A DNA stretch of 64,000 nt from Thauera sp. Its GTDB lineage: Bacteria > Pseudomonadota > Gammaproteobacteria > Burkholderiales > Rhodocyclaceae. The notes beneath the pieces are model-generated. The model did not search any database and had not been told where the DNA came from. It saw only the letters and a program-made list of their open reading frames with translations. How positions within the stretch are numbered: the first letter of the stretch is position 1; each line of letters opens with the position of its first letter. Where the stretch lies: the NCBI GenBank assembly GCA_017302295.1, contig JAFLDS010000014.1, positions 1 through 64,000 on the forward strand. The letters are read 5' to 3'. Shown in pieces: positions 28,528-42,931 of this stretch. A program made the position numbers and the translations under genes.

Positions 28528-29244
28528 TCAGCCCACGTCTGCCACCGATATCGTGATCCACGCCGCCCCGGGACGCTTCGCCACCGTGATTTGCCCGGAC
28601 TCCAGCCGGTAGGTCAGCTGGCAGTGATGCCTGGGGTTGGAAAGTACGCCGGGGTTGAAGATCGCCATGTTTTCGCCGGTGCGCCTGCGAACCGACTGGA
28701 TCAGAAGACCCGGGTGCCCCTCGCGATGAATCCGCGCCCCTACTGACTGGGGGAAGGCGTAGTCGGACGGGTGCAGCAGTTCGCCATACTCGACCGTGGC
28801 CTTGCGGAAATCCAGCAACGCGGCACCGCAGGCCACCAGGTAGACCTTGCGCTCGGCGATCACCGTCTCGCGATCGAACCCCGCATCGCACAGCAAGCCT
28901 CGATACCAGTGGTAAGCCGACTCGTAGACCGTCGTCTCGACCGATTCCGATCCGTACCACACGCCGTAAGAGCCGTCGGAAAACCGGCTCGCCTGCCAGT
29001 GCCTGAACGGCCAGAGGATGGCGCTGAACCAGGCGGCATCCTCGAATGGCCGGTCGATGATCGGCGTGTCCGAGCGATACGACGGCGGCCGGACTTCGGC
29101 CTCAACCGTCTGCGCCAGCAGCCACTCTGCCGGGTCGTCGCTCAGGTCATCGAACAGATCCTGCGACTGTCGCAGCGACACGATATTCCTCGCCACGTCC
29201 TGATGAACGTCGGTCAGCGTGACGCGAGCGAACAGCGACTTCAT
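28528..29244 (-). CDS. RES-domain toxin
   Basis: Toxin of a RES/Xre type II toxin-antitoxin system. Known RES toxins degrade NAD+ and resemble ADP-ribosyltransferases. The 238-residue product shows RES-family features: LFARVTLT near the start, [20 protein letters not shown] in the middle with a conserved Gly-Tyr-Glu pattern, and LLIQSVRR near the end. At this length it is of the larger RES type. It lies 13 bases downstream of the antitoxin gene, the usual order. Confidence 0.85.
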
Positions 29245-33402: not shown

Positions 33403-33659
33403 GGCATCGTCCTCGTTGCTGGGGTGGGCGAGTTCTACCTGAACGGGTTTCCGGTTGCCCGAGGGCCAAGGGTGTGCCCGGCAAGTCGATCTCGCCATGC
33501 CTGCGGGGCTGCGTCGATGGCTCTCTTTTTCAATGGACAGCAATCCGCGTTGCCGGTTCGGTGGCGCGTGGAGCGAAAGCCCCATGGACGCCAACGCAAG
33601 GCACAATAAGGCCGAGCCGGACGTTTCCGGATAGCACTTGAGCCAAGGATGAGAAAGCC

Positions 33660-33887
33660 ATGAATTCCGATCTCGATCAGCGTATCAGCTTCAACCCCCG
33701 CCAATGCGGGGGGCAAGCCTGCATCCGCGGGCTGAGAATCCGGGTGGCCGACATTCTGGAAATGCTTGCCCAAGGCGTCGAGCAATCGGAAATCCTTGCT
33801 GACTTCCCTGACCTGGAAGCGGCGGACATCATGGCCTGCCTGCATTTCGCCGCGAAACGTGCGGCGATTGCGAGACTGGCAGCATGA
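33660..33887 (+). CDS. DUF433 antitoxin
   Basis: Antitoxin-like protein of 75 residues. Family motifs are RISFNPRQCGGQACIRGLRI and EILADFPDLEAADIMACLHF, the latter a helical DNA-binding-like region. DUF433 proteins pair with DUF5615 PIN-like toxins, as they do here, with a 4-base ATGA overlap to the next gene. It is preceded by a GAGAAAG ribosome-binding site. Confidence 0.87.
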   Translation: MNSDLDQRISFNPRQCGGQACIRGLRIRVADILEMLAQGVEQSEILADFPDLEAADIMACLHFAAKRAAIARLAA

Positions 33888-34225
33888 TCTTCTGGGTGGA
33901 CGCCCAACTACCACCCGGGCTCGCACCGTGGCTGACCGAGGCTTTCAGCGTCGAGGCATACTCGATGCGCTTTCTTGGACTGCACGATGCCGAAGATGGG
34001 CAGATTTTCGATCGCGCGCGGGGCGCGGGTGAGATCGTGCTGATCAGCAAGGACAGTGACTTCATCGAGTTGATTGCACAGCGTGGTACGCCGCCGCGAC
34101 TGCTCTGGGTGACCTGCGGAAACGTGACCAATCGGCGTTTGCGCGAGGTGTTCGGCCGCCTGTTTGTCGACGCCATCGCCTTGCTGCAGGCAGGCGAGCA
34201 AATCGTCGAACTCGGCGACGCGTGA
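33884..34225 (+). CDS. DUF5615 PIN-like toxin
   Basis: Putative ribonuclease toxin of 113 residues with the DUF5615/Mut7-C PIN-like fold. It starts IFWVDAQLPPGLAPWLTE, has AEDGQIFDRARGAGEIVLIS and KDSDFIELIAQRGTPPRLLW; the acidic residues in VDAQ, KDSDF and the C-terminal half form the expected metal site. It overlaps the antitoxin gene by 4 bases. It lies 184 bases from the end of the Dnd-type operon, which reads toward it. Confidence 0.86.
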   Translation: MIFWVDAQLPPGLAPWLTEAFSVEAYSMRFLGLHDAEDGQIFDRARGAGEIVLISKDSDFIELIAQRGTPPRLLWVTCGNVTNRRLREVFGRLFVDAIALLQAGEQIVELGDA

Positions 34226-34409
34226 GCAGGCGTTCGATTGAAGGCGCTCGCGATTAGCCTCGCGTGTTCGTTGTTGCGTGGGATGTTTCGAACCGGAGTG
34301 CTGTTCATGAGGGCGGATTGTTGGGTTTCGTTACGCAGGAGGAACCCGTAGGGTGAACTGGACTGCTGCACGTTGAATGCGCAACAGGACATCCTTATTA
34401 CGGACGAAC

Positions 34410-37001
34410 TCAGGGCGGCCAGATGAAATCCCGGAAAGTCTTCGGCGTCATCGTTCGTGGGTAGCGTATGGCACCGGCCCGACTCGGGAGGATTGCGGTA
34501 ATCTGCTGACAATGTTCTGGCCCGTAGCTCAAATGAATCGGTCTTTCCGGGCCGTACACATACATCCGGTCGAATGGCAGATTCTCCGCGATCCACCTCG
34601 CCACTTCGAGCATGTCTTCATCGTCGACGATCAAATCGACCGCCGCGCCAAGCCGAGTACAAATCGGATTTCCAAGTCGGTTCAGCTCGCAGGCAGCATG
34701 CTGGTCCAGGGCGGGTGCAATGCGTGCGGAAATTTCGCGGGTGAGAGCCGGACCGGCGAAGCCATAGGTCAACCGGACCATCCCGAAGTAGTCGATGATC
34801 GGTGTGATGAGGCGGGTGGCGAGTGCGTGCAGCGCGTTGTAGCTGTCCGGATTGCGTGGACGGTTGTCGACCCGCGTGCGTTGCCACGTTTCCCCGCATT
34901 CGATGAAGTCGCGATAGGTGAAATGAGGGCCGCATGCGAAATCGAGTTCAGGTATGTCCTGGGCGGGGCGCAGCGCAAAGTCTTGGATCACGAGACGCAG
35001 CAGCGACAGGGCAGCGTCCAGTTCTGCGATGGGTGGTCCGTATGTTCCGGGGTCAAACAGTTCGAGGGCGCTAAGGGATTCATCGAAGGCTGACTGTTCG
35101 GCGAAGCGTGGCCACTCTTCGTTGATATACCGCGACTTGTCATACAGCGGAGGGGGTAAGACGGAATGTTCCCCGTAATAGAAGAAGTCGATTTCCTGAG
35201 TGCGCAGCTTCACCTTGATGCGCTCTGTCATCAGCGGAATCGGTTTTCCATCGAAGTCATCGAACTTCAGCAGGCTGAGCTTGCCGGAACGGATATGGAC
35301 TTTCACGACGTCGACGCGGTCGAGATCACCGTACAGCATTGCGCCGCAGCCGACGTAGATTCGAAGCAGTGGGGGCAGGCGGGATATCAGTGAGCATGCG
35401 AGCTGGAGGTAGTCGCTGGGCACGTGATAGCCGAGCCCCTGTTCGCTCGCCGTTTGGCTAGCGGCGTCGAGCAGGGCCGGGTGCGCTGCATCCTGCAATG
35501 CCTGCCGGGCGGCAAGGAGAGCCGTCGTGTAATCGCCGAAATGGGTCTTGATGTCGCGCTGCAAGGCCGTGTCGAGTTGGCGATAGGGCTTGTGTTTGCC
35601 AAACAGGCGCAGGGCCAGAAAGACGAGGAGATCATCCCGGCGCTCGTTCGCCGCCTGAGCGAGGGCCTGCCTGTCGCAAACTGCCGCCGCAATGCGGAGG
35701 GCTCGCTTCCATGAGCCGAACGCAGAAATTGCCTCGGCGGCACGAGGAAACTCGTCGCATTGCGGCTCGCGGCCAAGATCGATGCAAGTGGACCATAGCG
35801 CGTCGAGCAGTTCGCGATGTTCGGCGACAAGCTCGTGCAGCCTCGATGATCGAACGCGATCTTGACGCGGAGGACGTGATGTCCGTCGTGCATATGACCC
35901 TGCGCGCAGGTGCGGGCCACGCCGTCGGCGTTGGCACTCGAAGAGGAAGCGTTGCTCGGCAGACTTGTCGGCAAAGACGAACAGGATCCCCGGCGCGACC
36001 GGAATTGCCTCGGTATCGAGGACCGTTTCGACGAACTCCTTGAATTCTGTCTGGGTAAAGTACTTCTGAAAGGTGTTGCGCTGCGTGCGATAACCATCCC
36101 GGAAGGGACGACCGGCCGGCGGTGTGCTTCCGTACAGCATCACGGAGACCACGAGGACCGTTCGTGCCAGGTCGAATGCGCCGTGCAGGGCTGCGATCCG
36201 TTCATCGAAGTCCTCGATGACGTTGATGACGAAACCGAGATTGACGATATCGGCGGAGGTGCGGATGCCATCGGCTGCGTAATAGGGGTCCCAACCGCTG
36301 GCCGAATAGTGGTTTCCCCGCAGTGTCCGCAGGTCATCGCCGCGACCGCAGCCATAGTCGAAGAAGCTGCGCTCGGGATCGAGCAGACCGTGCCGTGCCA
36401 GGGCCTGAATCGGTGCTGACAGGCCGCTGCGGCTGAGGGCCGTGCGGTGACGTTCGATCGCGTCACCGTCCAGAATGGCTTCCTCGTCCATATCGACTGC
36501 GTTGCCCAGCGGCACCATTTGATGGTCGTCGAGTTGGTAGCCGGCATGGCTGATACGAGCGTCCCAAGCCCGACGAAAGCCGATCAGATGCGGATCCTCG
36601 AACAGCCCGAGGGCCTCGGCCTGTTCGGTCAGTTGGGAAAACCGAGTGAAATCGGGATGATCGGGCGGAAGCAGTCGTTCCTTGCGATGCAGAATGGGCG
36701 GGTTTAGCGATGACTCGTAGCTGCGATAGGACACAATCCCTTCACTAACACGGATGTGCCAGGCCTCACGCAGTTCCGGAAATGCCGCGGTGAAGAAATC
36801 GGGATAGTGCAGGGCCGAAACAACGCCCGCGATCTCGTCGATCTTGAGTACATTTGCCGTCGCGTCGGCGTCTGGGCAGACCGCCAACGCGGTGGTGGCA
36901 AGCGTGCGAAGCGTGTCCGGCAACCGTGAGATCGCCAAGCGGTGAATATAGATGCGGCCCGCGACGACTTTGCCGACGGCGCCCGTTGCCGGCGCCTCCA
37001 T
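34410..37001 (-). CDS. DNA phosphorothioation-associated putative methyltransferase with C-terminal M15-peptidase-like domain
   Basis: Last gene of the Dnd-type operon, 863 residues. Residues about 95-370 match the Dnd-associated putative methyltransferase family: RKERLLPPDHPDF, then SAM motif I FFDYGCGRGDD (213-223), then VNLGFVINVIED (253-264). A helical middle region (about 390-500) and a conserved block around LRIYVGCGAMLYGDLDRVDV follow. Residues 687-825 look like a Peptidase_M15_3 domain: FTYRDFIECGETWQRT, GMVRLTYGFAGPAL, GAAVDLIV with the ligand-type aspartate at 789, LPFDRMYVY and PIHLSY with a histidine at 823. The first zinc histidine is replaced by threonine (782), so it may bind rather than cleave. 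Its ATG shares one base with the previous stop (TAATG). Confidence 0.85.
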   Translation of the reverse strand: MEAPATGAVGKVVAGRIYIHRLAISRLPDTLRTLATTALAVCPDADATANVLKIDEIAGVVSALHYPDFFTAAFPELREAWHIRVSEGIVSYRSYESSLNPPILHRKERLLPPDHPDFTRFSQLTEQAEALGLFEDPHLIGFRRAWDARISHAGYQLDDHQMVPLGNAVDMDEEAILDGDAIERHRTALSRSGLSAPIQALARHGLLDPERSFFDYGCGRGDDLRTLRGNHYSASGWDPYYAADGIRTSADIVNLGFVINVIEDFDERIAALHGAFDLARTVLVVSVMLYGSTPPAGRPFRDGYRTQRNTFQKYFTQTEFKEFVETVLDTEAIPVAPGILFVFADKSAEQRFLFECQRRRRGPHLRAGSYARRTSRPPRQDRVRSSRLHELVAEHRELLDALWSTCIDLGREPQCDEFPRAAEAISAFGSWKRALRIAAAVCDRQALAQAANERRDDLLVFLALRLFGKHKPYRQLDTALQRDIKTHFGDYTTALLAARQALQDAAHPALLDAASQTASEQGLGYHVPSDYLQLACSLISRLPPLLRIYVGCGAMLYGDLDRVDVVKVHIRSGKLSLLKFDDFDGKPIPLMTERIKVKLRTQEIDFFYYGEHSVLPPPLYDKSRYINEEWPRFAEQSAFDESLSALELFDPGTYGPPIAELDAALSLLRLVIQDFALRPAQDIPELDFACGPHFTYRDFIECGETWQRTRVDNRPRNPDSYNALHALATRLITPIIDYFGMVRLTYGFAGPALTREISARIAPALDQHAACELNRLGNPICTRLGAAVDLIVDDEDMLEVARWIAENLPFDRMYVYGPERPIHLSYGPEHCQQITAILPSRAGAIRYPRTMTPKTFRDFIWPP

Positions 37002-38530
37002 TAAACACTGAGTTGTGTCGCAATGTCTTCAGCGCGGATATTGTACGAATGGGCGCGGATTCCGCGACCATCGCCACCCCGGAAGATCATGTCTCCAGCC
37101 CCCTGCAGACGTTCGGCTCCAGCTTCGTCCATGATGATTTTCGACTCCGCAGCACGTGCCACCCTTAGCGCGATACGAGCGGGGCAGTTCGTGCGCAGGA
37201 GACCGGAAAAGGTTTTCGCCTCTGGACGTTGTGTTGCAAGGATCAGATGAATCCCGGCCGCACGCGCCTTCTGCGCCAACAGGACCAAGCGCTCTTCGTT
37301 CGTCTTGTCCTGCATGACCAAGTCTGCCAATTCGTCCACAGCAACGATAATCCATTCGCCGCGATAACCTTTTTCACGCGCACTCGCCAGATCCTTGACC
37401 CCTAGTTCCGCAAACCTTGTGTAGCGAGCTTCCATTTCCTCGACAAGCTGGTCGAGCAGCGTTGTTGCCGCCGTGCTGTCGGTCGCCACTTCGCCGAACA
37501 GCAATGGGTAGTCGCGCCAAGCGGCGAACTCGACCTGCTTGGGGTCAATCAGTGCGAAACGAAGTGGGCGACGATCACCATACGACAGAAGGCTCAACAG
37601 CAAGGCATTGAGACAAACGCTTTTGCCGCTTCCCGTGGTGCCGCCGATCAGGAGGTGGGGCGCGCTGGCCAAGTCGAACATAAGCGGCTTGCCGTCAATC
37701 GTGACGCCTGGGCTAACGGGCAGACGCATTGCAACAAAATCGAAGCCAGCCGCAGCACGGGCGAAATGAGTGACGTCGACGGTTTGCCATGCTTCTTTCG
37801 GGCGGGGCTCGTCGAGGAAACAGGTTTTCGGTTCGTTGGCGTTGCTCAGGCTCAGCGTATTGCCGATACCCAGCGCAAAGCCCAGTTCGTCGAGCCGGCT
37901 TTCGAGCGCTCTGCGGTCAGTCGCTTTGGCAAGAAAGAGCTTGTAGCGATTGATTCTGGGACCAGCGAATGTCTCGCGGATCTCCGCAGTCACTCCGTTC
38001 TGCCGTAGCAACTTCAGAATGGCGTCCTGTTCCTCGTCGTCGATTTTCCGCGGGCCCAGTTCGTCAGCAATGCCGCCGTCGACTACTGAAAGTGGCGACG
38101 TCTGTTCCGGCAGGTTGGCCTTGCGGGCAAGGATCTCCAGAAAGCTCTTGAAATCGTCGCCAGCTTCATTTCGATCATCCGTCAATAGTCGGATGCCGCG
38201 GTGCCAGTGGTCGCGTACCAGCTTTTGCAGCGCCTCGAGAGTGAACGTTTCTTCGCCGCGGCGCCGCAAAAGTTCCCCGAACAGACCAATCCAGAGAAAA
38301 TTGCAGCTATCTTCGTCGCCGAAGAGTTGCAAGCCCTTGATCGCAGAGCCTTTTGCGTCAGGCGCCGCCTCGGGGAAGGATTCGAGCCCGAGCGAGCGAC
38401 CGAGGGCCAGTCGTATGATCTCGTAGTTGCTTTCCGCGCCGACGAAGCTCTTCAGATCCTTGGCAGCCTGGTCGGCTTCGCGGCTGCTCGAATAAGACGC
38501 AGTAAGAATATCGCTGATGCTGTTCATCAT
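37001..38530 (-). CDS. DndE-like domain fused to FtsK/SpoIIIE DNA translocase motor
   Basis: Product of 509 residues. Residues 1 to about 125 resemble DndE, the small helical protein that binds nicked DNA in phosphorothioation (SYSSSREADQAAKDLKSFVG, NYEIIRLALGRSLGL). Residues about 160-290 resemble the FtsK beta domain (FAGPRINRYKLFLA). Residues 290-509 are the alpha/RecA domain: Walker A GGTTGSGKSV (296-305), FALIDPKQVEF, Walker B IIVAVDELADLV (394-405), KARAAGIHLILATQRPEA and GAGDMIF. No N-terminal membrane part and no KOPS-binding gamma domain. It overlaps dndD by ATGA and the methyltransferase gene by one base. Confidence 0.87.
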   Translation of the reverse strand: MMNSISDILTASYSSSREADQAAKDLKSFVGAESNYEIIRLALGRSLGLESFPEAAPDAKGSAIKGLQLFGDEDSCNFLWIGLFGELLRRRGEETFTLEALQKLVRDHWHRGIRLLTDDRNEAGDDFKSFLEILARKANLPEQTSPLSVVDGGIADELGPRKIDDEEQDAILKLLRQNGVTAEIRETFAGPRINRYKLFLAKATDRRALESRLDELGFALGIGNTLSLSNANEPKTCFLDEPRPKEAWQTVDVTHFARAAAGFDFVAMRLPVSPGVTIDGKPLMFDLASAPHLLIGGTTGSGKSVCLNALLLSLLSYGDRRPLRFALIDPKQVEFAAWRDYPLLFGEVATDSTAATTLLDQLVEEMEARYTRFAELGVKDLASAREKGYRGEWIIVAVDELADLVMQDKTNEERLVLLAQKARAAGIHLILATQRPEAKTFSGLLRTNCPARIALRVARAAESKIIMDEAGAERLQGAGDMIFRGGDGRGIRAHSYNIRAEDIATQLSV

Positions 38531-40584
38531 GCGGTTCCAGCAAAATAACGATCGGCAACCGCCTCGGTTCTTCCGACACCATGTCCCATTTGTGCGTGCT
38601 GCAATAGATAGCTTTTTGCTACGTGCTTACCGAGGCGGGCAAATTCGATTGCGCCGATTTCCTTGTCTTGCGCAAGCAGGATGACCTGCCGTGTTCCGTC
38701 TTCTGTCCAGTAGTCGAGCAGATTCTTGCAGTGCGTTTCGGACAATCGGGCAAGTGGCGTGTCCACGATCAGCGGCACGTTGTAGCCGGTAACCTCGGCC
38801 AAGGCTCCAACCAGTGATAGCACGAATAGCTGGGACTCGCCCGAAGATTTGGGGAGATGGATCTCACTTCCCTCGTGGCTGAAAAGAACTGCCTTGCCGT
38901 CGTTCTGTATCTCGATGCGCGCCACCTGGTCCTTGTGGTGAAGGCGTCGGAAGAGCCGCGTTGTCGCGTCCGAAAGCGCCCTCAGCTTCAGTTCGAACAG
39001 TGCGGGCAGGAGGTCATCGATCATGGCGACGACCCGTTCGGCACGCTGCGCGGCGATGCGCTCGGGATGCCCCTCGACCAGTTTCTTGCGCTCCCGTTCA
39101 TAGGTTGCGCTGAGCTGCGATATATCGGCGTTCAGGGCGATCAGCTCGTTATCCTTTACATCGATCAGGCCGCGCAACTCCTCGAGGCGGAGCTGGATCG
39201 ACGTCAGCATAGTTGACAATTGCTCTGCTTCAGCGGAGCGATCGGTGCCGTCGGCGCCTTCCAGCCGGATGCGTTCCTGCTGAAGACGCCACCTTTCGTG
39301 TATGGCCTCATCCAACTTGATGGCAAGGGTACGCAGTGCGCTGCCCGAAACCCGGATGCGTTGGCGCATGTCGGCGAGCTTGCGGCGTTCATTGGTTTGC
39401 AGGTAGCGATGCCAATGAAAATCCGCACAGCCTGACGGTCGCGGCGAGTAGAGGCTCTCCCAAGCCTCGGCCAGAGTCCGCTCGAGTGAGTCGCGCGCAC
39501 CGGGAAGATGGCAGACGCCGGCAATCCAGGCCGAGTTGAAGAACGTGTCGTGAAACTTCTGCCAGCGCGGCTGTTGCTCGTCACGGAAGTGCTCCCACGA
39601 CGACAGCGTGTCTTCCTGTTCGAGTGCTTCGGTGAGAGCGTCGTGCAGTTGTCGTCTGACGAGCTGCAGCGGTAACGCGGTCGACATCATCTTCCGCAAC
39701 TGGGTACGGTAATGGTCTTCATCCTGCTCGGCGCGCGCACTCGCTTCGACAACGTCGGCAACGGTACGGGCATCGCTGCCCTGAGCCAGATCGCGGAGTT
39801 GCCGCGTCAGGCGTTCGCGTTGTTCACCGCCGCGCTGGAACTCGGTCTGGAGCTCATGGAGTGCTTCGGCGAGTTCGTCACGTCGGGCGGTTTTCTGGGT
39901 GAGCTGCTCTCCCAGTTCGCTGACGCGTTCCTCGTCTACCCCGCCCGCTTGACGCAGTTTTGCCGTGCTGTATTCCGCCAGCTTTTCCCGTAGTTCCCGC
40001 ACCAATACCACACCGAGAAGGTTTTCGAGGCCGGAAAGGATCCAGCGGGTACGATCTTCATCAGCCAGGACCGCAATCTTTTCACCGTCGAAGAAGAAGA
40101 ACGGCGCGAGCCACGGGGGAACCGCGTAACTGGAAAGCAACGCGGGCAGCATGACTTCCGGCCGCCCGGTCCAGGTGCTGCTGCCAGCACCCTGGGTTTC
40201 TATGACGAGACGCTGCGAATCGTACTTTCCGCTGCTGTTGAAGAACCACTTGCGGGTGATGCGAAGGCGCCCCTTTTCCGGGCGTGTGATTTCGATGGAC
40301 ACTTCCATCCGGTCGTCGCCGTTACGTAACGCATGCTTGTAGAAGGCAGTTTCGAGGAAATGACCATAGCCACGCGCATGCAGCCCCGCACGGTCGAGTG
40401 CGCGATGGCTTACTGCCTCTTCGCCGTATAGTCCGACGTAAACGGCTTCGAGAAGTGTGGTCTTGCCATAGCCGTTGATACCGCCCACCAGGACGAGGTT
40501 TCTGCCCCTGGCCGGTTGTGGAAACTCGAAAACCTGGTTTTGATAGCTCTTGAAGTTGCGGAGCGCAATGCGGGAGATCCACAT
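38527..40584 (-). CDS. dndD: DNA sulfur modification protein DndD (SMC-like ATPase)
   Basis: ATPase of 685 residues that supports sulfur insertion into the DNA backbone, probably by nicking or opening DNA. Walker A is GGINGYGKTT (34-43). FFFFDGEKIAVLAD near residue 165 is a DndD hallmark. Long coiled coils flank a central region (about 190-270 and 400-530). The C-terminal ATPase half has the signature SSGESQLFVLSLVGALAEVT and Walker B PLIVDTPLARL. Four bases separate it from the upstream 76-aa gene, and it overlaps the DndE-FtsK gene by 4 bases. Confidence 0.92.
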   Translation of the reverse strand: MWISRIALRNFKSYQNQVFEFPQPARGRNLVLVGGINGYGKTTLLEAVYVGLYGEEAVSHRALDRAGLHARGYGHFLETAFYKHALRNGDDRMEVSIEITRPEKGRLRITRKWFFNSSGKYDSQRLVIETQGAGSSTWTGRPEVMLPALLSSYAVPPWLAPFFFFDGEKIAVLADEDRTRWILSGLENLLGVVLVRELREKLAEYSTAKLRQAGGVDEERVSELGEQLTQKTARRDELAEALHELQTEFQRGGEQRERLTRQLRDLAQGSDARTVADVVEASARAEQDEDHYRTQLRKMMSTALPLQLVRRQLHDALTEALEQEDTLSSWEHFRDEQQPRWQKFHDTFFNSAWIAGVCHLPGARDSLERTLAEAWESLYSPRPSGCADFHWHRYLQTNERRKLADMRQRIRVSGSALRTLAIKLDEAIHERWRLQQERIRLEGADGTDRSAEAEQLSTMLTSIQLRLEELRGLIDVKDNELIALNADISQLSATYERERKKLVEGHPERIAAQRAERVVAMIDDLLPALFELKLRALSDATTRLFRRLHHKDQVARIEIQNDGKAVLFSHEGSEIHLPKSSGESQLFVLSLVGALAEVTGYNVPLIVDTPLARLSETHCKNLLDYWTEDGTRQVILLAQDKEIGAIEFARLGKHVAKSYLLQHAQMGHGVGRTEAVADRYFAGTA

Positions 40585-40588
40585 GCGC

Positions 40589-40819
40589 TTACTCCGGACT
40601 CGCCATCAGGATGTCGTCGATGTCTTCCGTCAGGCCTCTACGGCGCTGCTTGTGCGCGTGCTCGCGATACGCCGCGACGAGACGTGCGAGTTGATCCTCG
40701 GCCACATGATGTTCGCCAAGATGGCGGATCACGACTGCATAGGCGTCGGGGTCGTGCCACAAGGGGAGATCGTCCACATCGTGCTCGATCGCGATGTTCA
40801 GATGGTTACTCAAGGGCAT
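40589..40819 (-). CDS. DNA-modification-system-associated small protein
   Basis: Acidic protein of 76 residues, starting MPLSNHLNIAIEHDVDDLPL and ending EDIDDILMASPE, predicted helical, with AYAVVIRHLGEHHVAEDQLA in the middle. It sits between dndC (14-base overlap) and dndD (4-base gap). I recall a family of small proteins in this position annotated as DNA modification system-associated, and this fits by size and place, but I could not verify membership. Function unknown; an adaptor between DndC and DndD is a guess. Confidence 0.7.
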   Translation of the reverse strand: MPLSNHLNIAIEHDVDDLPLWHDPDAYAVVIRHLGEHHVAEDQLARLVAAYREHAHKQRRRGLTEDIDDILMASPE

Positions 40820-41909
40820 ATTCCTGCTGGTTTTGCTGTATGAGGTCTTCCGCCCATATGCGGCGGATGGTTTCGATCTCCGCGTCGCTGATAAGGCGCG
40901 CGCCGTAGGCCTGTTCGGTTTCCTGCAGGCGTTCGAGGATCATTTGACGCGCCGCGATGGTGAAGGGACCGGGTACCAGACGTCCGTTGGCGACCGTGAG
41001 CTTGCCGGAGCGGCGGCGTCCCTGGCGGAGGCTGAGTTCGTTTCGGATAGTCTTGAGCCAGTCGCGAAACTCGATCAGCGGGGCGTACTGAGCGTTGCCG
41101 CTGTCGACGAAACCTTGCAGGCTCTTGTCCTTCTCCACGACGGTGCAGGTCCAGCAGCCGAAGCGGCTTGAATTGGTGCCACACCCGGGCGCGTCATCCT
41201 GTGACAGCACAATGGGGCATTCGCCGCCGGCTGCGTCGCGGTAGAGCTTGATCAGCCGGCTGTTGTCGCCACCCCAGGCTGGAGGGTAGGTGGCGAGGAG
41301 TTCCCAGACCTCGTCAGTCGTGAGGTCGACGATTGGTCGGTAGATGTAGGCGCCTGTGAGGTCGTTGTGCGGGTGCAGGCGCGAGTCCTCGTGGTTCTCG
41401 TATCCGTCTATCCGGCGACGACGAACCTCCGACTCGTCACGCCGGACGCCGAGCAGGATGATTGCGGCCCCGTTTTCGGCAACCTGGTTGCGAATGTAAC
41501 GGCTGGTCGGCTGGATCTTCAGACGGTCTGTACACCAGCGCATCTGCTGGTTCGGACTGGGGTAGCCCTTGCCGATGAGGAGAGCCCAGAAAGTCTGGGT
41601 ATCGTCAGGGGTCGTTGTCGCAACCGTGATCGGCAGGTCGTGAACACGCGTCCCGTCCTCGATTTCCTTCAGGGACTGCTTGAGGTGCGATACGACAAGG
41701 GGGCTTTCGACCAGTGTGTCGTTGGCGACGACGTGAACCTTGCGCAGCAGACGGCTTGGCGCGATGTCCATCAGCGCGGCGAATACCGCCTGGGCGACCA
41801 GGGTGCTGTCCTTGCCGCCGGAGAAGCCGATGATCCACGGGTGGTTCTGCGCCGTGGAGAGGTACTCGGCACGGATTTCGGCGACGAGGCTTGAATAGTT
41901 GTCCTGCAC
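40806..41909 (-). CDS. dndC: DNA sulfur modification protein DndC
   Basis: ATP pyrophosphatase of the PAPS-reductase type that activates DNA for sulfur transfer. The 367-residue product has the PP-loop SGGKDS (30-35), RWCTDRLKIQP, DESEVRR, and the cysteine cluster GCGTNSSRFGCWTCTVVEKD that holds the 4Fe-4S centre in DndC. Start: a GTG at 41909 preceded by TAAGGA is better than a TTG at 41939. It needs a cysteine desulfurase; no DndA is nearby, so IscS is the likely donor. First gene of the operon. Confidence 0.92.
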   Translation of the reverse strand: MQDNYSSLVAEIRAEYLSTAQNHPWIIGFSGGKDSTLVAQAVFAALMDIAPSRLLRKVHVVANDTLVESPLVVSHLKQSLKEIEDGTRVHDLPITVATTTPDDTQTFWALLIGKGYPSPNQQMRWCTDRLKIQPTSRYIRNQVAENGAAIILLGVRRDESEVRRRRIDGYENHEDSRLHPHNDLTGAYIYRPIVDLTTDEVWELLATYPPAWGGDNSRLIKLYRDAAGGECPIVLSQDDAPGCGTNSSRFGCWTCTVVEKDKSLQGFVDSGNAQYAPLIEFRDWLKTIRNELSLRQGRRRSGKLTVANGRLVPGPFTIAARQMILERLQETEQAYGARLISDAEIETIRRIWAEDLIQQNQQEYALE

Positions 41910-41959
41910 GGTTTCCTTACACGCCGGTTTGCTGCCCAAATGTGGCAGTTGGCGAAGTG

Positions 41960-42025
41960 AACTGAAAATCCATAACAGTTTAAACCGATATTTAACTTCG
42001 ATGCGCCCGGAAACTTAACTTCCGG
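41960..42025. promoter_or_regulatory. Shared dnd/regulator promoter region with inverted and direct repeats
   Basis: The 119-base gap between dndC and the divergent HTH gene holds three ordered elements: an inverted repeat AACTG-N11-CAGTT (41960-41980); a direct repeat TTAACTTC at 41992-41999 and 42015-42022 (23 bases apart, about two helical turns); and a perfect inverted repeat CCGGAA-N7-TTCCGG (42007-42025) ending 3 bases before the HTH start codon. The last could be an autoregulatory operator, since it would cover the HTH ribosome-binding region. Which protein binds is inference. Confidence 0.55.
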
Positions 42026-42028
42026 TTC

Positions 42029-42430
42029 ATGAACGAGAAAGCTGAGTTCGGTGTCCGGTTGTGCAAGGCGATGCAGACGCAAGGCGTACCGCTGCGTCCC
42101 AGCGTGCTTGAGCGGGAGTTCAATCGGCGCTACTGGGGAAAGCCGATTACGCTGCAGGCTGTGCGACGCTGGATGCGTGGGGAAGCCATTCCGTCGCAGG
42201 ACAAACTTCAGGTGCTGGCGGAATGGCTCAAGATCGAGCCGCAGGTGTTGCGCTTCGGAGAGCAAGCAGTCCGCTCGGCACAGGTTGCACACCAGCGTTG
42301 GGAGGCGTTGAGCTATGCGGAACGCGAGACTCTCGACGCTTTCCTTCAACTACCGATCGAGCATCGACGAGTCGTGCAGCAGGTGATTGAGGCTTTCCGC
42401 TTGGCGTATTCGAAGGACGCGTCGTCATAG
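42029..42430 (+). CDS. Helix-turn-helix regulator divergent from the Dnd-type operon
   Basis: DNA-binding protein of 133 residues. Residues about 8-75 form a lambda-repressor-like or Cro-like helix-turn-helix (LCKAMQTQGVPLRPSVLERE, PITLQAVRRWMRGEAIPSQD, LQVLAEWLKIEPQVLRFG). The C-terminal helical part (YAERETLDAFLQLPIEHR) may dimerise. It faces away from dndC across 119 bases that contain repeats, so it probably controls itself and the operon. In canonical dnd clusters DndB does this job; none is present here. Confidence 0.83.
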   Translation: MNEKAEFGVRLCKAMQTQGVPLRPSVLEREFNRRYWGKPITLQAVRRWMRGEAIPSQDKLQVLAEWLKIEPQVLRFGEQAVRSAQVAHQRWEALSYAERETLDAFLQLPIEHRRVVQQVIEAFRLAYSKDASS

Positions 42431-42547
42431 AGGCGTCTGCTTGCCGAACCGGACCGTTCCGGCAATGAGGCGCAACAAGAGTCGGAGCAGCGCTCCAGGT
42501 CGAGACCGAAATTGTCGGCCTGGAATCTCGTCTGAACGCCTTGGAAC

Positions 42548-42931
42548 TCAGCCGGCCAGCCGGCTTCCCAATTCGATAACCTCGCCAGGAACCTGTCGTT
42601 GTTTCCCGCCGCCAAGAGCAATGCTCTCGAGCAACCGGGAAACGACCGCTTCCAGCGGCAGCGACACACCAAAATGCAGCGTTCTGCCATCCTTGAAAAT
42701 GGCCAGCGTCGGGAAATTGTCGACATCGATGTCGCCGACGATGTCCGCATCGTCCTCGATGTCGGCCCACGCGAACAGCATGTCGGGATGTGCGGCGGCG
42801 ATGCGCTCCAGCATCGGCCGGAACTCGCGGCAGGTGCCGCACCAATCGGCGCAAAACGCGATCACTAAGAGCGGGTCGTCGGTGAGGCGGGGGTGGCCGG
42901 GGAGGGCGGCGACCGGGAGAAGGGTAGACAT
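42548..42931 (-). CDS. Thioredoxin family protein
   Basis: Cytoplasmic redox protein of 127 residues with a thioredoxin fold. The active site is ADWCGTCREF (cysteines 31 and 34), so the dipeptide between them is Gly-Thr instead of Gly-Pro. The cis-proline is in VDNFPTLAIF. An extra hydrophilic C-terminal tail of about 25 residues is present. Similar small thioredoxins serve as general reductants; the partner is unknown. It reads in the same direction as rlhA, from which it is separated by 20 bases. Confidence 0.9.
   Translation of the reverse strand: MSTLLPVAALPGHPRLTDDPLLVIAFCADWCGTCREFRPMLERIAAAHPDMLFAWADIEDDADIVGDIDVDNFPTLAIFKDGRTLHFGVSLPLEAVVSRLLESIALGGGKQRQVPGEVIELGSRLAG

Follow-up and report, generated by a model that had tools for sequence, protein, structure and literature searches.

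Positions 41909 down to 34410 of the window, by which we mean the whole analysed stretch of 64,000 nucleotides from Thauera sp. (contig JAFLDS010000014.1, positions 1 to 64,000), hold five minus-strand genes encoding, in this order, a DndC-type sulfurtransferase of the DNA phosphorothioation (PT) kind, a small protein, a DndD-like ATPase, a DndE-FtsK fusion and a putative methyltransferase. An initial annotation had placed these five genes here as one coupled unit, and both statements stand: coordinates and NCBIfam and Pfam matches agree with the assignments, the first four genes recur in the same order at 13 further loci, and all five lie on one strand with close junctions. Its wording that overlaps or gaps are of at most 4 bases holds for the last three junctions (+4, -4 and -1 bp), but not for the first, where dndC and the small-protein gene overlap by 14 bp. 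At the last junction the start of the methyltransferase gene overlaps the stop of the motor gene by one base.

The dndC gene (40806..41909, minus strand) has a GTG start and encodes a PP-loop sulfurtransferase of 367 amino acids (aa) that scores 365.5 bits on TIGR03183, above the cut-off of 290.4 bits. It contains the SGGKDS PP-loop and five cysteines (C126, C231, C243, C252 and C255) that are invariant in a 10-row alignment, and it is 59-64% identical to the DndC of nine other small-protein loci; a PDB search with it gave no match. The small protein (40589..40819, minus; 76 aa) comes just under the gathering score of the Sp-DndD family PF20306 (26.3 vs 27.2 bits, E 8.4e-6) and is 29-36% identical to its counterparts in three plasmid loci (L185-L187) and in L075. 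The dndD gene (38527..40584, minus) encodes a Rad50/SMC-like ABC ATPase of 685 aa matching TIGR03185 (E 3.3e-67). The family matches bear out the Dnd core of C, D and E domain, though DndD remains below its cut-off and the DndE match is marginal (see below).

The fourth gene (37001..38530, minus; 509 aa) was assigned from PF08870, PF01580, an alignment of 13 fusions and a PDB profile match. Its DndE domain covers residues 16-121, followed by a weak FtsK_alpha match at residues 165-222 (E 0.006, below gathering) and by the FtsK motor from residue 267 on (PF01580, 144 bits). The motor motifs are intact (GTTGSGKS at 297, VDELADL at 398, ATQRP at 432), the PDB profile search returned an FtsK match at 1.8e-90, and the key residues of Walker A and Walker B are invariant in 13 of 13 aligned fusions. 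DndE is indeed fused to an FtsK motor of the alpha-beta type, as had been proposed, and since the protein ends shortly after the motor there would be no room for a gamma domain. In a tree of FtsK domains, which leaves out L204, the 13 DndE-FtsK rows group with one housekeeping FtsK and away from six DndH domains, with a long-branch warning. PMC10853773 describes fusions of DndE to HerA and FtsK domains, encoded next to an ATPase related to DndD (clade-3 HerA/FtsK), a grouping that our tree neither confirms nor refutes.

The four-gene core in other genomes

The order dndC, small protein, dndD and motor gene is contiguous in all 14 loci that we collected (the window, L075, L185-L187 and L242-L250), which is no survey rate because the loci were chosen for DndC, DndD or a nearby methyltransferase. 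The motor is of the FtsK type in ten of them and HerA-like in four; its type was assigned with phmmer except in the window, L075, L185, L244 and L249, where Pfam was used. A DndE-like N-terminus is present in all 14, weakly so in L242, L244-L246 and L248 (E values between 2e-6 and 1e-3 when the 14 sequences were searched). Among 399 genomes of the order, 19 gave a DndC match at 1e-40, and nine of these matches besides the window are of the window's type, one of them (G632) being reported with an internal stop. The four genes adjoin one another in all nine loci, six of which have an FtsK-type motor and three a HerA-type one.

The arrangement can also be found in annotated records. Plasmids of Burkholderia glumae (L185), Aureimonas (L186) and Rhizobium phaseoli (L187) have all four genes annotated in this succession, the second as 'DNA modification system-associated small protein' and the fourth as 'DNA translocase FtsK', and a contig of a Simkania metagenome-assembled genome has the same four-gene order with a HerA-like motor. 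HerA-like motors stand in place of FtsK on the dndC-small protein-dndD backbone at L075 14581-16116, L247 6712-8082, L249 7409-8944 and L250 7375-8907, and we take the alternation of FtsK and HerA-like domains on one backbone as an exchange of the motor. On two of the plasmids a TusA sulfurtransferase gene follows right after dndE-FtsK (L186 10587-10823, tested with Pfam, and L187 10626-10829).

The methyltransferase and its family

The last gene of the operon (34410..37001, minus) encodes a protein of 863 aa that scores 567.3 bits, at a cut-off of 150, on TIGR04096, named 'DNA phosphorothioation-associated putative methyltransferase'. Its S-adenosylmethionine (SAM) domain occupies approximately residues 178-360, with DYGCGRGDD at 215, GWDP at 236 and NLGFVINVIE at 254, and the core of SAM motif I is invariant in an alignment of 49 rows, namely the window protein and 48 manually selected long members out of L049-L129. 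The protein also contains an internal duplication, in which the N-terminal domain (residues 8-178, 36468..36980, minus; NPPILHRKE at 100) matches the middle domain (residues 520-672, 34986..35444, minus) with an hhalign Prob of 98.3 and an E value of 1.9e-14.

The C-terminal domain (residues 675-863, 34413..34979, minus) is the one that had been described as peptidase-like, a description supported by similarity to phage Peptidase_M15_3 but not by Pfam or PDB profile searches. The Pfam M15 family PF08291 matched none of the 49 members at 0.01 and gave nothing for the window domain at E 1, and a PDB profile search with this domain likewise gave no support for M15. A tblastn search against phages, on the other hand, found proteins annotated as M15 or Peptidase_M15_3 (best 3e-7) that Pfam confirms as PF08291. 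The candidate metal ligands H768, D789 and H823 are invariant in the 49 rows and align with the same residues of four phage Peptidase_M15_3 proteins; in that family the H, D and H residues are the metal ligands. Peptidase activity of the predicted M15_3-like domain is doubtful because two phage residues, the Glu of the LEFY motif and the Trp that precedes the final His, are not conserved in it. In Pseudanabaena the domain is a separate gene beside a short methyltransferase and a locus with DUF4007 and 3'-phosphoadenosine 5'-phosphosulfate (PAPS) reductase, and in Leptolyngbya a separate gene for it lies 1.3 kb from the methyltransferase; this occurrence in split and fused form supports a joint function of the two. 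Geminocystis, Calothrix and two Nostoc records with the domain have no annotated methyltransferase in the 14-16 kb inspected.

A GTDB scan returned at least 541 relatives of the methyltransferase among at least 591 stretches, and neighbourhoods were counted for the best 80 of these, so the counts favour full-length and similar members. A cysteine desulfurase is found near the methyltransferase in 28 of the 80 loci; in 18 it immediately precedes the methyltransferase gene, in the same orientation and at a distance of no more than 150 bp. DndC, SspD-type PAPS reductase and DndD occur 12 times each, DndF-, DndG- and DndH-like proteins 8, 8 and 9 times, and SspB- and SspC-like proteins 8 and 9 times; neighbour clusters were named from Pfam and NCBIfam matches of representatives, the DndF, DndG, DndH and SspC names being our presumption. 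As a yardstick, any DndC match was found in only 21 of 398 genomes. Among the 44 loci flanked by 5 kb on either side, a PT-synthase-type gene is present in 19, a number that rises to 26 with named FGH- or PbeA-type genes, to 33 with desulfurases and to 36 with an unnamed trio of 1425, 295 and 1495 aa proteins, while 8 have none of these.

TIGR04096 itself was matched above its cut-off in 11 of 398 genomes of the phylum, 2 of 101 relatives and 4 of 399 genomes of the order. DndC and methyltransferase occur together in four genomes of the phylum (21 with DndC at 1e-10, 11 with the methyltransferase) and in three of the order (19 and 4), counts that treat the DndC and methyltransferase genome samples as identical on the strength of matching handles.

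Members of the family stand beside Dnd loci (L051, L059, L115, L117) and Ssp-type loci (L044, L045, L125). As to the co-occurrence of DndE-FtsK fusions with this methyltransferase, a check proposed earlier, such fusions lie near it at L097, L109 and L121; in the 14 core loci the two share an operon once. A HerA-like DndE fusion lies near the methyltransferase at L075, L086 is a weak further case of a DndE-motor fusion, and the class 'DndE-FtsK' stands at 0 of 80 in the neighbour scoring because other probes outscored it. In L081 (2-9748) and up to nine similar loci the methyltransferase is found beside a HerA-ended 1425 aa protein and proteins of 295 aa and ~1495 aa. Neither Pfam nor NCBIfam gave a match to the last two at 0.001, and these loci are possibly an FGH-like system.

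The GC content of positions 33423-42629 is 0.599, vs 0.665 and 0.672 in the 20 kb flanks, and this interval also corresponds approximately to the DNA that is additional in comparison with the empty site of two congeners. These were identified by searching 26 genomes of the genus, from which seven sites were fetched. G418 and G413 are without the stretch, their flanking glyoxalase-type and thioredoxin genes being 139 and 128 bp apart, and G398 is without it as well, together with part of the left flank. G403 and G410 have a fragment of the methyltransferase 3' end at the same chromosomal site (residues 739-829 and 786-829, 88-92% identical; L218 2368-2642 and L219 4004-4135), and after it a gene that was judged by eye to be ABC-transporter-like. 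The remaining two sites matched the right flank only, and in L217 and L219 there is a second match to short flank pieces. Because of the empty sites and the methyltransferase fragments at the same site, we read the operon stretch as gained within the genus and probably partly lost within it. The host genome has IscS over the cut-off on contig C51, unlinked to the operon, a single DndC match, which is the operon's own, and no DndB match; DUF4007 gave no match there, but its control was silent too.

Proposed function and alternatives

It seems fairly likely that the operon is a compact, motor-fused cassette for writing PT that has gained a translationally coupled methyltransferase as an accessory of the sulfur or PT branch. 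Gene content, coupling, conserved motifs and the linkage of the methyltransferase family to PT genes are features of the sequence itself; from them we infer a sulfur donor in trans, translocation, a role for the small protein and everything concerning the methyltransferase substrate. Housekeeping IscS would hand sulfur to DndC, DndD and the DndE part would pick the sites, the FtsK half of DndE would carry the complex along duplex DNA, and the small protein would tune DndD. The duplicated domains of the methyltransferase and the HNH-type repeat of this copy may serve recruitment to DNA or to the complex, and the SAM domain could then methylate a non-base target, such as the PT group, a persulfide intermediate or a partner protein, by other than the usual amino-methyltransferase chemistry. 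A motor-fused core is already known, and it is the coupling of a PT-linked methyltransferase to such a core that is unusual.

Several observations weigh against this reading. Only in the window, among the 14 core loci, does the methyltransferase lie inside the operon (in L075 it is present on the strand opposite to the core), and the nine genomes of the order with window-type DndC gave no match to its family at 1e-40, so the writer can do without it, and its place in the operon may be accidental. The five genes that the initial annotation put forward as a variant operon do not recur as a set in these loci, the methyltransferase being absent from the operon in 13 of the 14. Two of the core assignments are marginal, as DndD falls short of the TIGR03185 cut-off (227.4 vs 245.85 bits) and the DndE domain barely reaches the gathering score of PF08870 (25.6 bits, gathering 25; related fusions give 35 in L249, 31 in L075, 24.8 in L167 and no match at 0.01 in L185 and L244). 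As to the family linkage, 8 of the 44 well-flanked loci show no probe at all and 18 no named Dnd, Ssp or Pbe probe, desulfurases are also housekeeping genes, the counts come without a matched neighbourhood control, and the 80 loci are not independent, many being from Methylococcaceae.

The first alternative is accordingly that a mobile PT-linked methyltransferase came to lie behind the core by accident and does not work together with it. Such mobility would agree with its presence in a single core locus, with a Piscinibacter plasmid copy (L190) that has no annotated PT gene within 10 kb, and with a 58% identical copy in Thauera linaloolentis, which stands beside a different desulfurase-dndB-dndC-dndD locus. 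We nevertheless hold this to be unlikely, given the one-base overlap with the motor gene and the overall association of the family with PT genes. A Massilia plasmid (L188) was also considered as a case of the methyltransferase apart from PT genes and was dropped, as this plasmid also has a dndD match.

The methyltransferase might instead modify DNA bases and so add another mark at PT sites or close to them, which we regard as quite unlikely. A SAM-dependent fold is indicated by motif I and by weak matches to Methyltransf_23 in 36 of the 49 members at 0.01, and the window copy has an HNH_repeat over the gathering score at residues 396-438. However, this repeat is present in only 4 of the 49, and [DNS]PP[YFW], which is motif IV of DNA amino-methyltransferases producing N6-methyladenine or N4-methylcytosine (m6A/m4C), is found in the SAM region of none of them, which disfavours the second mark suggested earlier if m6A/m4C is meant by it. 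PC[QN] is absent from the window protein, and in a PDB profile search the SAM domain gave nothing but weak matches, with an E value of 0.083 at best, to class-I methyltransferases such as TehB.

A second clade, with dndC-dndD-dndE-FtsK operons, was found in 7 of 18 further fetched DndC regions. Behind the motor, eight of ten loci of this clade (L167, L169, L170, L172, L173, L184, L097 and L109) have an AAA_21-like and a DUF4435-like gene, recognised by eye from size and sequence; Pfam gives AAA_21 at 6.5e-18 for the first protein of L167 and DUF4435, below gathering, for its second (1.9e-5) and for the second of L173 (0.0087). The methyltransferase could be the effector of the locus in place of this pair, and its one-base overlap with the motor gene would suit such a role. 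We consider this improbable, since L097 and L109 hold both the pair and the methyltransferase, which are therefore no simple alternatives, and the family also accompanies writers of several other kinds.

In a tree of 34 ABC ATPases the window DndD falls into a 100/98 clade with L075 and L185-L187, separate from the CxC/PbeC side and from a second 10-row clade of FtsK-type operons; CxC or CxxC is confined to the 7 rows of the PbeC-side clade and is missing from residues 151-550 of the window DndD. A Mesorhizobium amorphae plasmid (L203 2093-9636) has two tandem ABC-ATPase/DndE sets, a desulfurase-dndC-ABC-dndE set and then a separate small protein-ABC-FtsK-AAA set. That the small protein, DndD and DndE-FtsK form a Pbe-like restriction or scanning module (PbeB, PbeC, PbeD), with dndC as the sole writer part, agrees with the L203 arrangement and with PADLOC, whose PbeC model PDLC02733 scores 573 bits on DndD against 270 for the best DndD model, but is improbable, as DndD is without CxC/CxxC and outside the clade of ATPases beside PbeA-like helicases, the operon has no second dndD/dndE pair, dndC and the small-protein gene are neighbours in every one of the 14 core loci, and the second ATPase of L203 is in another clade.

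Returning to the writing cassette with a sulfur- or PT-branch methyltransferase, a specific version of it would have the enzyme S-methylate PT in DNA, or cap sulfur during transfer, and the M15-type domain remove or read the mark, amounting to a two-step backbone modification. Members of the family accompany Dnd as well as Ssp writers, often come right after a desulfurase and are without the usual amino-methyltransferase motif, all of which is compatible with this version, to which we give very little credence. How the DndD/DndE part of PT writers locates its sites is a scanning question that can be addressed in a motor-fused four-gene writer, and the exchangeable FtsK or HerA motor on one backbone makes scanning testable by one point mutation. 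No substrate has been assigned to the TIGR04096 family in the literature that we searched, and as the family is widespread and PT-linked, an operon in which it is joined with a compact writer lends itself to identifying one.

As to the surroundings, a divergent helix-turn-helix gene (42029..42430, plus strand; HTH_3 at 0.0018, below gathering) starts 119 bp upstream of dndC and is a possible regulator of the operon. Promoter and terminator scans of the locus did no better than shuffles, and Rfam gave no match. No restriction gene was recognised in the operon; DndF, DndG and DndH were not found among operon proteins or scanned flanking open reading frames, the whole genome not having been searched for them, and the same holds for the PbeA HKD-helicase, for which the rest of the genome was not searched. 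Just 3' of the methyltransferase gene, and inside the extra DNA, lies a DUF433 and DUF5615 (PIN-like) pair (33660-34225, plus) convergent with the operon. A RES-domain gene (PF08808), of a family frequent in toxin-antitoxin pairs, is located at 28528-29244 (minus).

Comparison with known systems

The statement of the initial annotation that no experimental description was known holds for the combination of genes, as the literature that we searched, with preprints and most subscription papers outside its scope, has no experimental description of a DndE-FtsK system, of TIGR04096 or of the two together; DndE-FtsK fusions as such are nevertheless in print, in PMC10853773, and in plasmid records. 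The accessible parts of PMC3226654, PMC8569181 and PMC12839542 do not describe the gene combination of the window, and in Rhodococcus qingshengii RL1 a PT-associated putative methyltransferase follows dndABCDE according to PMC8416521.

Compared with Dnd (dndABCDE), the operon has DndC, DndD and DndE homologues and complete DndC motifs, but is without dndA and dndB and has in addition an FtsK motor on DndE, a small protein and a short DndC (367 aa). It shares with PbeABCD, the CxC ABC-ATPase systems, the order of small protein, ABC ATPase and DndE, and differs from them by its dndC and by the absence of the CxC motif and of a PbeA-type helicase-nuclease in the operon. The M15_3-like domain resembles phage Peptidase_M15_3 in the aligned H, D and H, with DQH at the phage SQH, and is set apart by an insert of 14 residues, by the lack of an acidic residue where the phages have the LEFY Glu and of a Trp where they have WIH, and by the absence of a Pfam match; shorter TIGR04096 members (L038-L040, L045-L047) are without this domain. 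The plasmid cassettes L185, L186 and L187 have the same dndC-small protein-dndD-FtsK succession but no TIGR04096 methyltransferase in the operon, and L186 and L187 have TusA after the motor. The window methyltransferase belongs, over the cut-off, to the same family as the other TIGR04096 methyltransferases, and differs from them in standing in one operon with a motor-fused Dnd core.

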